IMG/VR virus record: IMGVR_UViG_3300025120_000758
Location: 1-20,071 of that record
Origin: a virus
Direction: 5' to 3' (one strand)
Length of the DNA: 20,071 nt
Made by a program: the position numbers and the translations under genes. The stretch's first letter is position 1. The number at the start of each line of letters is the position of its first letter. Of this stretch, positions 4,610-12,385 are shown piece by piece. The notes beneath the pieces were generated by a model. It was not told the origin of the DNA. It worked only from the letters and a program-made list of their open reading frames with translations, and did not search any database.

Positions 4610-4641
4610 ATTTAATTATTACTTATTTTACACTATAATTA

Positions 4642-7600
4642 CTATATTATAGAAAATTGAAAATTTTCTACATCATTGGGTTTATTAGGTGTAGCCATGT
4701 GTGCTCCTAAACTAGTACATATTTGATTTCCATGGCTATTGATTTGTTCTCTTTGGCCAAGGGTCACAGCTCCTTGGTCGAATGGTACTGGATTATTGTT
4801 AGAATCTAATTCATTATTCTTCCACTCTTGAGCCCATTGAAACCAATATTTTCTAAAAGCATCTCTTTCTTGGGTTAACTGGTCTATGAAATTCCCACTT
4901 CTCCATTTTGATCCAATCCAACCACTGAAAACATACATTGCCCATACTTTTTGAATATCTTCTATGCTTGTTGTTGTGCCGCTTGTGCGGGAATAAAACC
5001 AAGGGCTAGTTGTTGCTTTCTGTGGACCACTATACGTATATATTATTTGAGGTCCTTGTGCTGTAAAATCCCAATTTATATCTAATCCGGCTACTCCTCC
5101 CCTGTCCGGCCTATCCTTAGCATCGCTACTACTACTAGTAGACAATTCGTTGTAATAAAACTGCTTTTGGCCAGAACTGTTTACTGTTGTATACTGTATT
5201 CTAGAAGTTCTTATAGCTGGGTGACCTTTAAGAACTCTAAATCTCATTGCACTTTTTGTAATTGCTGCGTTATTATAGTTCCATCCAGGCCCATAAGTGC
5301 TGTTTCCAGTGCTAGAATCATAAGTACCTCCAACGTCTCTAAACAGCTTCATGCAACCTGTCAAAGCTAATCCAGGAGCACCTTGGCTTCCTGCTGGTAA
5401 AGCTGTGTTTTTATCTCCTTCTATTATTTCATAAGTCCAAAGATAATCAGGAGCTCCGCTATAACCTGTAACTGCTATTCTGCCGTTTATTTTTGGCGGT
5501 AATCCCCACCCATTTATTTGATCTGTAGTAAAAGGACTCCAAGGAGCATAAATATCAGTAGAAGGTGTTGGTTGTCTTTGAACTAAATGATCACCACCCG
5601 AAATAGGCGTTGTCATTGGAATAGTTATTGAATTAGGAGTACCTAATGCAGTGGCATAATCTGCCATAGAAAAACTTCCAGCTATTCCATGGCTTTGTTC
5701 CCCAGGTGTACAACAAACTTGCGCTTCTTCACTTACATTATTAAAATAACCCATCGCGTAAATATACCAACCATAATTATCACTAGACGCACCTGGGGTG
5801 TTAGAATTTATTTCAAATACAGTAGAAGGATAATACCACCATCGAGTTCTAACTGAGTCTGGCTGACAAAAGTTAGCAGCGCCGCAACCCTCTATACCAT
5901 CAAAAATCGGCGGAGCAGAATCTGTCCCAGGTAAAATATATTGAGGTGGAGATCCACCGTAGGTTTCAGCAAATTCACCGTAAGCATCTACTTGGTGAAG
6001 TTTGTTCCAAAAATTTTCTGATCTAAGTTGAACATTCATTTGTACTTCTATAGTAATAAACTCAAGATTTTCTCCACCGTCTTGAATCGCAAGTCGCACG
6101 TAGTAATTACCTCCTGGAAAAAGACTAGGAAAATCAGAACTATTATTTACTAGTCTGAACCTAAGATTTCCATTAGGATTAATAGTAGGTGGTAGTATCG
6201 AAAATAAAGGGGTTGGATCTCCTCCGCTCCCTTGAAAAACAGCTTCAGGACCGTTTATAGAGCCAAGCCTTTGACGCCATATTCTAAAATTGATTTCTTG
6301 GTTTGGATTATTTACCATTTCAAGATCTCTAATCGACAACGCGATACCTCCGTCACCAGGATTTGGTGTTACTATGTTTGCCGCACCATTGTTTATATTT
6401 ATTATAGCTATATCTCTAACACCTTTACTTGTTATAACTGGAACAGGATCAGGGTATGGAACAGCGGGCGTGGCCCCAGGCCCATATGTTATATTTGAAA
6501 GTGGGCTTTCATTTAAAGCTTCAACTGTAAAAAACTCTGGAACTATATTGCGTAAATTAGCCGTTCTTGTTACAAAGTTTTCTTGACCATCTACTACTAT
6601 TCTAAAATTAAAAGTAAACTGCCTTAAACCTTCATTTTCATTGTAAAAATAATAAATATTATCAAAATAATTTATAGCACCAGAAACTGGTCCACCTAAA
6701 ATGCTTGGAGTTGTTTGAGATGTTGTTTGTATTTGCCAAGGTCCAACACCAGAGGGGTTAGTTTGTAGATTAACTAATCTAAAATAGTCCGCATCTTCTC
6801 CATTAACATTTTGACCTAGTTGATTTGTTATTGCTGGTGCTCCATTTGGCGCGCTCAATTCTAATATATCATTTAAACCTAAAGAAATTGTTTGACCAAA
6901 ATTATCAACTACTTGAAAAGGCGCTGCTAATATACGGCCATTTTGAGCTAAGCCTTCATCAAAATTAGGGTTCCATGATATATTTGATCCAGAAGGATTG
7001 CTTTGATTATTTAGTACAGATTCGTTTAAATCTGATATCAAACCTGATGTAGATGTTTCCCAAAATATATCTATAGCACTTTCCACTGGTTCTGTTTCAG
7101 CTATAGCAAGATATTGCAAACCAGGTCTAGTTAATTCAAAAGGAGGAACAGAAGAATTTCCTTTTGTAGGAGTAAAAAATATTTTAATGTTATCAGGTAG
7201 GTTTACCACTACAGCGTTGCCACTAGAATTTACTAAACCTACTTCCATTGTTCCAGCAGCAGCAGGCGCACCACCTACAGGCGTATTATTACCAACATAT
7301 GTTTCAGATGGTATACCAACGCCAGTTACTAAATAGTTTCTTAAAGAATTTAAAGTAGTAAGAACACTTGTAGCTGCGGAAACTGAAGTTATTGTTATAG
7401 TGCTTGAAGGTCCACCAGGTGGAGGGTTCGATAGAGACTCACCGCCTGCAGGTAAATAGTTAGAACTAGCTAGTTGACCAATTTTAAATTCTGTGCTTAG
7501 TCTAGCAATCAATGGGTTCGATTCTAAAGAATAAAACTGAGGAAATAAATTTTGCAGCGGTGGATTAAGAGGATCAAAGTCAAATAAATCATTAATAGTA

Positions 7601-10314
7601 GATATAACAGAAACAGTGTCTGTAGTTCTTTGTGGGTAATATTGAGTATTAGAAGCTCCTATGTTAGTAGATGAAACTAATGTAGTTGTGTTTTGTACTC
7701 TACCAATTAATTGAACTGAACTTCTAAATTGTTTTTGATCTGGTCCAACCTCTGTTAAATCTCTAGGTACTTTATTTATATTGTCGTTTATAAGAACAGC
7801 GTGTGAAGTTTGACCTACTTCTAGGGTGGTATCATTAGGATACGACGCCATTATACCGGGTAAGTAAACATTGTAATAATCTTGCTGGGTTTGCTTAACT
7901 ACAATTTTATATGAATACCAGCCAAGAGGGTTATAATCTACACTAGTTATATCGCTATTATATAGATTATCATTTGGTATAGGAGCATTCATTAATATTT
8001 TTAATGAATTTCCAGGCCAAGATGTTTGAGTAACTCCTGCGTTTATATATGGAGAAAACAAAGTAGATCCAGCATATTCTACGCCATCTACTATAATAGA
8101 TGTTTCGTTATTAGATAAAATAACACTAGACTGTCTACCATATCTATCAGAAAGGACGAAACCTATTTGGTAATTTCTATTTGTTTTAACAGAACTATTA
8201 GGATATTCTATTTTAGTAACAGAGTTTTCCGTATCAGATCCAGGCTCTGCTATAACAGTCACAGTTCCAGCTGGGAATGTTACAGCGTTTGAAAGAGTTA
8301 AAATAGAAGCTCCTGATACATTAGAAGTAGCACTAGTTACTTGAGTGCCTGTTGGTATATTAACACCATAATCATTACATGTTACATAGTAACCTGTCCA
8401 CAAACCATCAGTTCCAGCGGTTTTTAGAGAAATAACAACATTTATTGGATCACCCGCAGCGTAAGTTGCAGCGCCGGCACTATAAGCAAAAGCAGCATCA
8501 TTAAGATTAAAATCTGCTTTTTGTGTAGAGGCAACATTGTAGTTTAAAGAATCTGGTGGATTTATTTTGTTTTGAAAATTACCATATATAACTCTATTTC
8601 CAGCTACTTCTTGAGCTTGAGCTCTAACTGGTATTTTATCATACACTCTAATTAAATTACTTTCTGGTAAAGTTTTAGTTGGCTTTGTAGATCTATATTC
8701 ATAATTAAAGCTGGTAATATCACCAATAATAATAGGAGAATTATCGTCTAATTGAGCAACGGTTTTATTAACTTTTATAATTCCGGCCACTGGATTACTA
8801 GGGTCTGTAGGAGTAAATTCTGTTATTTGAGTTTTACCAATTTCAAAGCCAGGACCATTAACAATATTACCAACTGTTATACCTCCTTGAATATTTTTTA
8901 TAGATATAGAAGCGCCAGCCGCTCCAGGCGTTTGTGCTCCATCTACTTCGCAAATACAAGATTGATTTGTTATTTTATCTACAGGTAATGTTTCAACAAC
9001 TCTCACAGCTATACCATCTGATTCTTTATAAAGTATATCAATTTCTTTTATTTTTAAAGCTGTTTGTAAGTCATAATTGTTAAAAGGAAGAGGTATTTTT
9101 AAATCAATACTATTAACTTTATTTTCCATAAAATAAACAATAGTACTTCTATACGCCTCATCTTGGTCGTTTTTAGCTTGACTTCCTTTTTGAGTAAGAT
9201 TATTAGGATCTACAAACATAAAATAGCCATCTTGTTTTGGTATAAAAGCTATTTGAGTAAAAGGAGAAAATATAGAATATGTATTATCTTGAAATTTATA
9301 TCTATAAGCAAATCTAACAAATCTATCTTCAAGATAATCTGGATCACCTGAAAAAGTAGGATCAAAATAAGGGTTGGCGTTAAAAACAAGTTTTTGATTT
9401 TCTTGAATTGTTATAGAACCACTTAGCGTTATATCAAAATCACCAACACCAGCCGGTGTACCAACATTGCTTACTGTTCTACCTGTGTCAGTAAGAGCAA
9501 AATTACCACCCGGTATGTTATTTTGAATAAAAACTCTAGAGGCTGTTGTATATGGATTACCAGTACCATTATTTATTTCACCTATAATATTATCAACAGG
9601 TATTACGTCTGAAGTTAAAGTTCCAGCAGTTGCAGACAAAGCACTACCTCCGTTAGGTAAAAACAAACTACTAACATCTTTCATTGTAGTTTCGTAAGAA
9701 GTTGCTGAACCTAAAACACTTGATTGATAGAGCTCTATTGCTTCAAAAGGATTGTATTTAGCTACAGATATTTGATCTTCAGTCGTGTAATATGTTGGGT
9801 TTGTGTTTTGAGAATTTGAATTAGCTAAAATTGTATTTATTACTCTTGGTTGATTTCTGTTGTCTGTAAAAAATAACAAATCTTCTAACACGTTAACACC
9901 AGTTATTAAGTTTGTTTGAGAAAAATTAAGAAACGCACCTTGTACTAAAATAGTAGACTGGTTGGTCAATGTGTTTGTAGATATTATAAAGTTTTTAGCC
10001 GCAGGTTCATATTCTCCTTGTCCTAAATTTAAATTAGGGTTTTCATCTGTATAGTTTGTAAAAAATAAATAAGCAACACTGTTTAGTTCATCTGAAAAAC
10101 TACCAATGCAAACTATATTTAAAAACCCAGTTAACGCACTATAGTCTACAATATTAACATTTCCAAGAGTGTTTTCTAAATTACCAACTTTAGATCCTTC
10201 TGATTTACTTACTTGAACATTTCTAGCATCTCTATATTCACCTTCAGGTAGTAAACGAGCGTCCAAGTCTTTATTCATCTTGGACTTTAAAAAAGTATTT
10301 TGAACTTTAGCCAT
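4642..10314 (-). CDS. Very large tail stabilization / 'muzzle'-type protein with a Trp-rich C-terminal module
   Basis: This protein has 1890 residues. Its N-terminus carries the family-like signature MNKDLDARLLPEGEYRDARN (residues 13-32), followed by SEGSKVGNLENTLGN (38-52). Other blocks I recognise from crAss-type and marine Bacteroidota phage stabilization proteins are SNLIRVYDKIPVRAQ (552-566), LSDRYGRQSSVILSNN (721-736), NPLGWYSYKIVVKQT (795-809) and ESAIDIFWETSTSGLISDLN (1078-1097). Beta-rich inserts lie at about 238-315, 465-530, 640-690 and 975-1050. A cadherin- or Ig-like stretch lies at about 1300-1430. From about residue 1431 to the end the composition changes: 16 Trp against 7 in the first 1430 residues, plus most of the cysteines. 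That part may contact the host surface. Such proteins close the tail and interact with DNA and receptor; this role is by family analogy. Start and stop are clear. Confidence 0.7.
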   Translation of the reverse strand: MAKVQNTFLKSKMNKDLDARLLPEGEYRDARNVQVSKSEGSKVGNLENTLGNVNIVDYSALTGFLNIVCIGSFSDELNSVAYLFFTNYTDENPNLNLGQGEYEPAAKNFIISTNTLTNQSTILVQGAFLNFSQTNLITGVNVLEDLLFFTDNRNQPRVINTILANSNSQNTNPTYYTTEDQISVAKYNPFEAIELYQSSVLGSATSYETTMKDVSSLFLPNGGSALSATAGTLTSDVIPVDNIIGEINNGTGNPYTTASRVFIQNNIPGGNFALTDTGRTVSNVGTPAGVGDFDITLSGSITIQENQKLVFNANPYFDPTFSGDPDYLEDRFVRFAYRYKFQDNTYSIFSPFTQIAFIPKQDGYFMFVDPNNLTQKGSQAKNDQDEAYRSTIVYFMENKVNSIDLKIPLPFNNYDLQTALKIKEIDILYKESDGIAVRVVETLPVDKITNQSCICEVDGAQTPGAAGASISIKNIQGGITVGNIVNGPGFEIGKTQITEFTPTDPSNPVAGIIKVNKTVAQLDDNSPIIIGDITSFNYEYRSTKPTKTLPESNLIRVYDKIPVRAQAQEVAGNRVIYGNFQNKINPPDSLNYNVASTQKADFNLNDAAFAYSAGAATYAAGDPINVVISLKTAGTDGLWTGYYVTCNDYGVNIPTGTQVTSATSNVSGASILTLSNAVTFPAGTVTVIAEPGSDTENSVTKIEYPNSSVKTNRNYQIGFVLSDRYGRQSSVILSNNETSIIVDGVEYAGSTLFSPYINAGVTQTSWPGNSLKILMNAPIPNDNLYNSDITSVDYNPLGWYSYKIVVKQTQQDYYNVYLPGIMASYPNDTTLEVGQTSHAVLINDNINKVPRDLTEVGPDQKQFRSSVQLIGRVQNTTTLVSSTNIGASNTQYYPQRTTDTVSVISTINDLFDFDPLNPPLQNLFPQFYSLESNPLIARLSTEFKIGQLASSNYLPAGGESLSNPPPGGPSSTITITSVSAATSVLTTLNSLRNYLVTGVGIPSETYVGNNTPVGGAPAAAGTMEVGLVNSSGNAVVVNLPDNIKIFFTPTKGNSSVPPFELTRPGLQYLAIAETEPVESAIDIFWETSTSGLISDLNESVLNNQSNPSGSNISWNPNFDEGLAQNGRILAAPFQVVDNFGQTISLGLNDILELSAPNGAPAITNQLGQNVNGEDADYFRLVNLQTNPSGVGPWQIQTTSQTTPSILGGPVSGAINYFDNIYYFYNENEGLRQFTFNFRIVVDGQENFVTRTANLRNIVPEFFTVEALNESPLSNITYGPGATPAVPYPDPVPVITSKGVRDIAIININNGAANIVTPNPGDGGIALSIRDLEMVNNPNQEINFRIWRQRLGSINGPEAVFQGSGGDPTPLFSILPPTINPNGNLRFRLVNNSSDFPSLFPGGNYYVRLAIQDGGENLEFITIEVQMNVQLRSENFWNKLHQVDAYGEFAETYGGSPPQYILPGTDSAPPIFDGIEGCGAANFCQPDSVRTRWWYYPSTVFEINSNTPGASSDNYGWYIYAMGYFNNVSEEAQVCCTPGEQSHGIAGSFSMADYATALGTPNSITIPMTTPISGGDHLVQRQPTPSTDIYAPWSPFTTDQINGWGLPPKINGRIAVTGYSGAPDYLWTYEIIEGDKNTALPAGSQGAPGLALTGCMKLFRDVGGTYDSSTGNSTYGPGWNYNNAAITKSAMRFRVLKGHPAIRTSRIQYTTVNSSGQKQFYYNELSTSSSSDAKDRPDRGGVAGLDINWDFTAQGPQIIYTYSGPQKATTSPWFYSRTSGTTTSIEDIQKVWAMYVFSGWIGSKWRSGNFIDQLTQERDAFRKYWFQWAQEWKNNELDSNNNPVPFDQGAVTLGQREQINSHGNQICTSLGAHMATPNKPNDVENFQFSII

Positions 10315-10320
10315 TAAATT

Positions 10321-11571
10321 TTAGTGTTTTATCCATTTAGATTTACCTCTCATCACTTGAATTATTTCGTCAAGTTTAATATTAGATAGTCTTATTTTAG
10401 CATTTCTAAGTTTAGCACTTCTATCTCTTTTCAATCGCATCACGTCGTTTGCATTTTGGTTAGCTCTAACAGATACTATGTTATATAATATAGAAGCATA
10501 CAAAGCGTCTTCTGCTAATTTAGGTACTTTAGAGTCAACGTCATAGGCTAGGCCATCAGATATGTATTCTAAGACAATTATTTTGTCTACAAGATTACTA
10601 GAAAAAGAAATTTTACCTTCTCTGTAGTTACAATTAAACCAACCATTTCGCTGAGCATATTGAGGCAATATACCATACTGTTGACCATAAAAAATATCAG
10701 TTCCAAATCCATAAAAATTAGCCCAATAAGCGTAGTCGTCTAAATTATTAAAAAACTCTTGGCTAATTATTTTAGTATTTGCTTTTTTCCACCTGTCTTC
10801 AGTAATAGAAGTTCCTTCTATATTTGAACCAAAATTATCTTGAATAGGTAAGCCAGTTGCGTCTTGCACTGGATTGTTATACGGACTAGTTGTAAGATTG
10901 TTTGCTGGATATATGGGCATTTTTACTCCTAATCTATCAATATAACAAACGCTTACATAGTTTACATAGTCTTGAGGTAAAACTATGTTTAAACTGTGTG
11001 GTACTGTTAATTCTTGAGAGTGTATGCTTTTAAGAGTATCATAGCTAAACTCTTGTAAAGATCTTTTGGCAAAAAATAATACATCTGATTTTTTAGCTGA
11101 TTGAAGTATTTTTCCATCACCCACGTAACCAACCATAAAGTTGTCACACACGTCGCTTAAGCTTAGATATTCGTAGCCACCATAATTTTCTTCTACAGTT
11201 TCACCAAAAGCGTCAAATCCAGTTCCCGCAGCAGAGTCTCCATAATTGCCGCCACTTAAAGTTTTTAATTGAACTACTAAATAAGTTCCTTGAGTAAGAG
11301 ACACTGGAGCTGCAATAGTTCCTAAAGATATTGTATCATTACTGACTCTATAAGCAGTTGTATATTCTGTAAAACTATCTGGTAATCCAGTTGTGCTTGT
11401 ATATATTTTAAAATTATTTAAAGCATAGTTAGTAATTGTCGGATCAAAAGAACCAAAAACTAAATTAGTTTCAAAAGATGTTTTAAAATCAGTCTGACCA
11501 GTAGCGTTTTCTACTACAAACACTTGAGCGCCTTGATAGTATTGTTGATTTGTTTCTGTTACTAAACTCAT
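10321..11571 (-). CDS. Tail ring / head-tail connector protein (conserved Bacteroidota-phage structural protein)
   Basis: This protein has 416 residues. An N-terminal beta-rich domain (about residues 1-125) leads into the conserved core: KKSDVLFFAKRSLQEFSYDT (160-179), SLNIVLPQDYVNYVSVCYID (193-212), a LGVKMPIYPANNL block, IEGTSITEDRWKKAN (251-265) and SDGLAYDVDSKVPKLAEDAL (338-357). It ends in a basic helical tail, RDRSAKLRNAKIRLSNIKLD (382-401) then QVMRGKSKWIKH. From memory this core is widespread beside the capsid and muzzle genes of marine Bacteroidota phages, and it fits one of the ring proteins that join portal to tail in crAss-like virions. The exact ring number cannot be told from sequence. 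The gene starts 4 bases after the preceding gene and ends 6 bases before the muzzle gene, so the three are probably co-translated. Confidence 0.65.
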   Translation of the reverse strand: MSLVTETNQQYYQGAQVFVVENATGQTDFKTSFETNLVFGSFDPTITNYALNNFKIYTSTTGLPDSFTEYTTAYRVSNDTISLGTIAAPVSLTQGTYLVVQLKTLSGGNYGDSAAGTGFDAFGETVEENYGGYEYLSLSDVCDNFMVGYVGDGKILQSAKKSDVLFFAKRSLQEFSYDTLKSIHSQELTVPHSLNIVLPQDYVNYVSVCYIDRLGVKMPIYPANNLTTSPYNNPVQDATGLPIQDNFGSNIEGTSITEDRWKKANTKIISQEFFNNLDDYAYWANFYGFGTDIFYGQQYGILPQYAQRNGWFNCNYREGKISFSSNLVDKIIVLEYISDGLAYDVDSKVPKLAEDALYASILYNIVSVRANQNANDVMRLKRDRSAKLRNAKIRLSNIKLDEIIQVMRGKSKWIKH

Positions 11572-11575
11572 TTAT

Positions 11576-12385
11576 TTAAGATTTTTCGTTAGCTTCCACT
11601 TGAGCAACCTCTTGAGAGGCAACGTCTATTATAGTGGGATCATTTATTATTACACCTGCGTATTTTAATATGCGAGTTATAATATTAGTTTGTTCAGAGT
11701 TATGTAAAGTAAAATTAACAGAACCAGACGAATTAGCTATATATTGGCCTTGAATACCTAACCTGTAAAACCAAACAGGGTTTGTTGGACTTACAATGCA
11801 GTTCATTTCAACACTAGTTGGTAATGGAAATATTTTAAAATAAGGATCAAATCCTGGCACTAAAACACCACTGTCGGTATACGCTAAAGGATATTTTTCA
11901 GTTGGCGCTGTTAATTTAGATCTTATAATTTTATTGTATTCAGACTTAGAAACAAGCTGAGTTATATAATTACCGCCAGATGTAGAGGCGCTAGAACTAT
12001 AAGAAGAACTTTGGGAACTAGAAGAATTATATGTAGAAAGTATTTCACCCACCCAATACACTTGAAATAACATTTCTCCAGCAGGTGGAGTATTTTGGCT
12101 GTATGACCATCCATCTTGATCTGTGTCATAAGTCAAAGGTAAATCTTTTACAAATGGAGAGATTTTTTCTTCTTGATTTTTAAAAATATTAAAATACTGA
12201 GTATCGTTTTGTGTGTTGTTTTGATTTTGACGGTTTAATTGATTACCATCTGGAAAATATGATTCAAATATTTCCAACTGTACTTGCTGAGCCAAATTAT
12301 TAAACTCAGCTGGAGTAATATAACCTCTTTGCTCTTTATTTAATATCTGCAAGACTGTTTGATATACCGTATTTACATTTACCAT
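11576..12385 (-). CDS. Second tail ring / head-tail adaptor protein with a serine-rich loop
   Basis: This protein has 269 residues. Its N-terminus, VYQTVLQILNKEQRGYITPA (7-26) then EFNNLAQQVQLEIFESYF (27-44), is a helical motif I recognise from small connector or ring proteins of Bacteroidota short-tailed phages. It is followed by beta-rich segments (DPYFKIFPLP, NPVWFYRLG) and a C-terminal helix with NIITRILKYAGVIINDPTII (234-253). A low-complexity serine stretch (residues 121-136, 12 of 16 Ser) sits in the middle and probably forms an exposed loop. The codons there mix TCT, TCC, AGT and AGC, so it is not a simple trinucleotide repeat. Location between capsid genes and the larger ring protein supports a connector role. 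The assignment is inferred from motif memory and order. Confidence 0.6.
   Translation of the reverse strand: MVNVNTVYQTVLQILNKEQRGYITPAEFNNLAQQVQLEIFESYFPDGNQLNRQNQNNTQNDTQYFNIFKNQEEKISPFVKDLPLTYDTDQDGWSYSQNTPPAGEMLFQVYWVGEILSTYNSSSSQSSSYSSSASTSGGNYITQLVSKSEYNKIIRSKLTAPTEKYPLAYTDSGVLVPGFDPYFKIFPLPTSVEMNCIVSPTNPVWFYRLGIQGQYIANSSGSVNFTLHNSEQTNIITRILKYAGVIINDPTIIDVASQEVAQVEANEKS

Follow-up and report, generated by a model that had tools for sequence, protein, structure and literature searches.

The question raised by this locus is why a large tail protein of a crAss-like phage ends in a segment which differs in composition from the rest of its chain. The window (the whole stretch of viral DNA analyzed here, 20,071 nt) is filled by a crAss-like phage structural gene block on the minus strand, comprising terminase, portal, putative scaffold, MCP, more structural genes and the muzzle; the scaffold assignment is a probable one and rests on position. 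A first-pass annotation had marked a tryptophan-rich module at the C-terminal end of a muzzle-family protein, and its coordinates were right (4642-6027, residue 1430 to the stop). The ORFs at 10321-11571 and 11576-12385 matched phrog_13977 and phrog_14543 respectively, both labelled head and packaging, virion structural protein, and from their position they are putative ring proteins. Directly after MuzC (2300-2821) there is a 173-aa protein which matched short tail fiber and adhesin families (phrog_12032, E 5e-32; phrog_24280), and in Podoviridae sp. ctfjg026 the gene following the muzzle is annotated as a putative glycosidase. The features of the muzzle region are presented in Table 1.

Table 1. 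Features of the split muzzle in the window.
Feature	Position	Strand	Evidence
MuzN, N-terminal half of split crassvirus-type muzzle, 1890 aa	4642..10314	-	phrog_14478, E 2e-39
MuzN core, residues 1-1260, conserved in the lineage	6535..10314	-	column conservation mostly 0.3-0.8
Ig/cadherin-like domain, residues 1261-1430, preceding the module	6025..6534	-	AF2 model residues 1-168; VIA
Trp-rich terminal module, residues 1431-1890, apparently an enlarged form of the lineage's terminal domain	4645..6024	-	
muzN-muzC spacer, 32 nt, bearing AAGTAATAAT ending 5 nt before the muzC ATG	4610..4641	-	
MuzC, C-terminal half of split muzzle, 590 aa	2837..4609	-	phrog_14478 profile 920-1155, E 4e-46

The protein does belong to the muzzle family as had been proposed, but it is not a whole tail protein: the ORF is the first half only, and the second half is the next gene. 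The split, and the place of the module at the break, had been overlooked. The N-terminal muzzle profile was found in MuzN, with a best stretch on phrog_14478 of residues 5-195 against profile positions 2-179 of 1474, and the C-terminal muzzle domain (Pfam crAss_MUZ_C, PF25729, E 4e-10) was matched by MuzC and is thus present in the gene pair, whereas MuzN alone does not have it. In place of the single polypeptide of a crassvirus muzzle there are two ORFs with a 32-nt spacer. Profiles were compared by hhalign against a target of five single-chain muzzles with crAss001 first. Residues 1-589 of MuzN aligned to residues 1-321 of crAss001 gp44 (prob 100; a greedy alignment reached 558) and residues 108-390 of MuzC to residues 1031-1291 (prob 100; the greedy alignment started at 1003), while MuzN residues ~919-1890 had no reliable counterpart in crAss001 by this comparison. 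Since the two proteins map to either side of the IG2/crass region of gp44, the break appears to fall within the part which forms the tip-located IG2/crass fold in crAss001, by homology at the profile level only.

The gene encoding gp44 (PMC10172136) directly follows that of the ring protein gp43 and its N-terminal and C-terminal regions are homologous to MuzN and MuzC, but it encodes one 1371-aa chain, unbroken in the IG2/crass region, to which no counterpart of the module could be aligned. The closest annotated relatives, Cellulophaga phi38:1, Flavobacterium elemoF and Podoviridae sp. ctfjg026, have a similar gene order from portal to muzzle but their muzzles are single ORFs of 1324, 1493 and 1551 aa. 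The available excerpts of PMC10172136 present the crassvirus muzzle as a highly conserved protein and the likely gate and docking part, its length varying through insertions in the crass and IG2 regions, and according to the same paper the T7 nozzle protein shares ring-joining and propeller domains with crassvirus muzzles. No description of a split muzzle was found in the available portions of the literature on the crassvirus muzzle.

To place the break among relatives we examined 165 rows, many of which share contigs: the window, its own copy (L004), three phage records and 160 viral contig loci. The halves were in different ORFs in 140 rows and in one ORF in three (the phage records), and 22 were incomplete; among the 143 loci with both halves located only the three phage records were fused. 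The 140 split loci collapse to 93 distinct junctions. At 84 of these the spacer is 17-49 nt long, with 33, 31 and 20 in the three modulo-3 classes, so no fixed frame joins the two ORFs; at the other nine it is longer, and in one of these MuzN is broken. When the fused ctfjg026 muzzle was used as the query, 80 loci were found, of which 78 were fused, one was partial and one (L216) was interrupted elsewhere. In bacterial genome contigs all four loci found have the halves in separate ORFs as in the window. These loci were binned in MAGs labelled Bacteroidetes (L261, L263), Flavobacteriaceae (L264) and Ilumatobacteraceae (L262), the last of these being probably a binning error.

A tree of the shared C-terminal region was built from 70 sampled rows, 40 split (the window, three genome loci and 36 chosen at random) and 30 fused. 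The split rows formed one side of one branch (SH-aLRT 88, in a tree for which the tool warned of long isolate branches), which makes a single fission the simplest history; most simply, the muzzle was split once, in the ancestor of this crAss-like lineage. The muzzle region of Maribacter phage Panino (L179, 6379-9219 and 9330-10292) is also annotated as two CDS, but its MuzC match spans both, so that the break is placed differently from that of the window. In two further loci (L102, L109) the reading frame of MuzN is interrupted.

The spacer itself carries a conserved element. AAGTRATWMT was found at most 40 nt upstream of muzC at 78 of the 93 distinct junctions, 12-21 nt before the start codon and in most cases beginning 15-16 nt ahead of the ATG. 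Fifty of the 93 junctions have the strict form, AAGTAATAAT, which has 31 occurrences elsewhere in the 3.5 Mb of the same loci (both strands counted) and, on the window's coding strand, is confined to the site before muzC. The element may act in starting translation of muzC, as a promoter or as an exchange boundary. In six loci (L029, L034, L042, L045, L068, L077) a muzN-muzC gap of 431-502 nt holds a further ORF, 134-157 aa long and bearing a GG...DID motif; sub-threshold matches were seen for L068 (NTP_transf_2, E 0.0017) and L029 (Polbeta, 0.025), and no family was matched by those of L034, L045 and L077. The two ORFs of the window are adjacent, on the same strand and matched by the same family profile, as would be expected of one gene broken by assembly error or joined by frameshifting, but this reading is almost certainly wrong and was ruled out, because the identical break recurs at 93 distinct junctions, the spacers fall in all modulo-3 classes and the spacer element is conserved.

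We then turned to the segment that follows the Ig-like domain. From the loci 94 distinct complete MuzN ORFs were taken, related to one another and not independent; ORFs open at either end, the fused L001-L003, L102 and L109 were dropped, and identical ORFs were counted once. Column conservation per 45-residue block falls to 0.08-0.27 after residue ~1440 from the level given for the core in Table 1, and the segment is a distinct, variable terminal domain; the first-pass annotation had likewise taken it for a separate domain. A tail of at least 69 aa is present on 93 of the 94 MuzN. The tails of 93 rows (without L084, whose tail is 2 aa) fell into 13 sequence clusters, 23 rows being in that of the window, and 26 rows have short tails of 111-154 aa. 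Homologues of the module were detected by tblastn at 50%, 46%, 46%, 49%, 31% and 29% identity in L005, L006, L027, L087, L092 and L054, and at 26%-27% in L078 and L009. In one locus (L140:13661-14260) the place of the usual terminal domain at the end of MuzN is taken by a Hint domain (Pfam Vint PF14623, E 2.8e-10).

Comparison of long and short terminal domains gave three colinear profile matches (E 1.8e-5, 0.0034 and 0.14; reversed control 0.59), that is one good match and two weak ones, and two predicted models were consistent with homology of the two forms. The model of the window Ig domain plus module (630 aa) had pLDDT 70.5 and pTM 0.75, with model residues 542-604 below pLDDT 50, and that of a short form (L026, 229 aa) had pLDDT 89.5 and pTM 0.80. 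The order of elements is the same in both: a first strand is followed by the GWYIYA strand, a third strand, the PWFY strand accompanied by a helix and, at the end, the YxFxII strand, which by eye is kept in several tail types. Relative to the short form, the long one has approximately 200 additional residues after the third strand and ahead of PWFY, as well as a poorly predicted stretch preceding the final strand, and the module of the window is thus read as an enlarged form in which two insertions have been added to a scaffold common to the short tails. An alignment was made of 19 rows from the window's cluster of 23, omitting three near-duplicates and the short L038, and only six module columns were invariant in it (N7, G85, G92, P136, P341 and W342, module numbering). 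Among the tryptophans W1772 was kept in 19 of 19 members and W1799 in 17, while the other 14 were the same in 1-12 members.

Searches for a known family or fold gave little. The Ig domain and module of the window matched no Pfam or PHROG family, and a family search with the 19 module members returned only Kelch_6 (0.0087) and TonB_C (0.023), each for a single member. Fold searches of the PDB and the viral library with the Ig-plus-module model gave no match at E 0.001. By VIA the Ig-like domain of this model, which has no Pfam match, was cadherin-like (best Z 7.5, rmsd 2.7, 100 aligned), as was that of the short-form model (best Z 9.2, rmsd 2.5, 94 aligned), which was matched through its Ig part only; the VIA rows for the window model mostly cover residues 1-168, and the empty result for the module carries little meaning. 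The module alone found no match in a direct search of the phage collection, and its own peptide patterns found no relative in viral_contigs. The module relatives were recovered via the two muzzle halves, and an alignment-based module search gave 13 loci, all on contigs already found in this way. Podovirus-like phages often have tail spikes which depolymerise polysaccharides of the cell surface, according to the available excerpts of PMC10136315, and the module could on that ground be an enzyme such as a glycan depolymerase and not a binding domain; we consider this very improbable, as no enzyme family was matched in the 19 members and the six invariant columns include no typical acid-base residue.

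The composition which first drew attention to the module was confirmed. Sixteen of the 23 Trp are in residues 1431-1890 and seven in 1-1430 (hypergeometric p 5e-6), and in none of 2000 shuffles did the densest 460-residue window reach 16; the module likewise has the majority of the Cys (6 of 10, p 0.017). The GC values reported for 4681-5580 (39.6%) and 9001-9300 (25.3%) were reproduced and the contrast is real, but the latter is the AT-richest 300-base block of the gene and so an extreme case; the whole of 4642-6024 has 39.3% GC against 33.6% in the rest of the gene. Similar values were found for the MCP (38.4%), the Ig domain before the module (38.2%) and the ORF at 1615-2298 (40.1%).

The same contrast runs through the lineage. 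In the 59 of the 94 MuzN with tails of at least 150 aa, Trp per 1000 was 24.8 in tails and 5.4 in cores (tail higher in 57 of 59) and GC was 0.381 and 0.339 (tail higher in 59 of 59). When tail GC was predicted from tail amino acids and core codon usage a value of 0.373 was obtained, and for the window 0.383 against 0.393 observed (core 0.336). Amino acid composition accounts for approximately four fifths of the GC excess, and foreign DNA was ruled out on this basis as the cause of the GC contrast. Mapped on the core tree, tail type required 14 changes where the minimum is 13, and a single branch separates the window's type from all others. Tail type therefore agrees with core phylogeny and is old, and the same count ruled out that distant lineages swap tail types freely. 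Profiles of the Ig and terminal domains had no match in the fused ctfjg026 lineage, which indicates that both were gained, or diverged past recognition, before the split lineage radiated.

The first-pass annotation had read the module as a separately acquired graft. Its higher GC and Trp content, the empty searches of Pfam, PHROGs and the phage collection and the fused muzzles without a counterpart are what a recently acquired foreign domain would give, but the GC is raised in every long tail, mostly as a matter of amino acid composition, and the module is one lineage-wide family on one branch. The graft was not borne out, and a recent foreign origin is very unlikely. The opposite outcome set out in that annotation, a conserved core part of the family with the same composition, was found in part: the segment is shared and has the same composition, but it is variable and not conserved.

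How the variation arises could be followed in close relatives. Among 357 pairs whose core identity exceeds 0.55, the mean identity of the tail was lower than that of the core in every band. For the pair L079/L082 amino acid identity was 97% in the core, 97% in MuzC and 51% in the tail, in which the last ~20 MuzN residues are nonetheless identical, and identity at fourfold sites was 0.94, 0.93 and 0.49 in the core, MuzC and tail respectively (p 3e-18). Nearby genes are 86%-100% identical except the giant last gene (L079:13681-21885 versus L095:15997-21192; 70%), and identity is 100% for the two genes which separate it from MuzC. The low synonymous identity of the tail indicates that a diverged allele was imported, and not that the protein was changed in place by selection. 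Diversity-generating retroelements act at adenine-directed sites, and one was ruled out as the source of variation in this pair because identity at fourfold sites had fallen to 0.49.

Among 39 close pairs compared at fourfold sites the tails were less alike than the cores in 14 at p<0.01, pairs which are not independent as several share members, and more alike in four (L143/L145, L028/L033, L016/L144 and L122/L127); 21 gave no tail-core difference at p<0.01. Both directions of difference fit a segment with its own recombination history, and the 21 null pairs add no support. Within a type, recombination between relatives replaces the alleles of the terminal domain, and wide-range swapping was not seen. 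Variable patches were also noted in the MuzN core, at ~901-1020 in L079/L082 (two 60-residue blocks with identity 0.75 and 0.42) and at ~241-300 in L028/L033 (0.35).

In the available excerpts of PMC10172136 and PMC10136315 the crass domain of the muzzle is placed at the tail tip, where contact of this domain with the cell surface is proposed to trigger opening of the gate. On balance we favor the reading that the module is an exposed, recombining cell-contact part on the free C-terminus of MuzN, at the tip of a muzzle split in the ancestor of the lineage; the data show the split, its single placement on a tree, the scaffold common to long and short tails and the locally discordant divergence, and the parts which we infer are co-assembly of MuzN and MuzC, position at the tip and host contact. 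The ancestral muzzle would have been split inside the region forming the IG2/crass fold, and the MuzN and MuzC chains presumably assemble together as a hexameric gate. The split would leave a free C-terminus near the distal tip, bearing an Ig-like domain and then a terminal domain with variable insertions, and recombination between relatives would replace terminal alleles while core and MuzC are unchanged. Local replacement of this kind fits because a part which contacts a changing host surface would be expected to vary. The earlier suggestion of a host-recognition domain at the distal end of a tail protein is in this respect plausible. Pfam and PHROG searches, and fold searches which mainly covered the Ig part, yielded neither a receptor or ligand nor a known binding fold for the module.

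The main rival to this reading is a structural role, in which the terminal domain clamps MuzN to MuzC or neighbouring subunits, or aids gate opening, and varies with its partners and not with receptors. We regard it as doubtful but realistic. The near-universal retention of a tail, the last strand kept over several tail types, the identical end of the otherwise diverged L079/L082 tails and the Ig and terminal domains without counterpart in the fused lineage would all suit such a clamp, but in L079/L082 the remaining MuzN, MuzC and most neighbours are near-identical, so no partner among those genes co-varies with the tail.

The cell-contact reading can be taken further, to a proposal which we put forward as rather unlikely: that fission of the muzzle made the gate the main host-recognition protein, with its tip end a recombining cassette of Ig stalk and terminal domain, bounded downstream by the conserved 10-base element before muzC, which could be an exchange boundary or a dedicated start signal for the second half. 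At the level of the lineage, a two-gene muzzle with a locally replaced terminal domain at the break is natural variation which points to the docking surface, and the terminal domain may offer a defined segment for the study of cell contact in environmental crAss-like phages.
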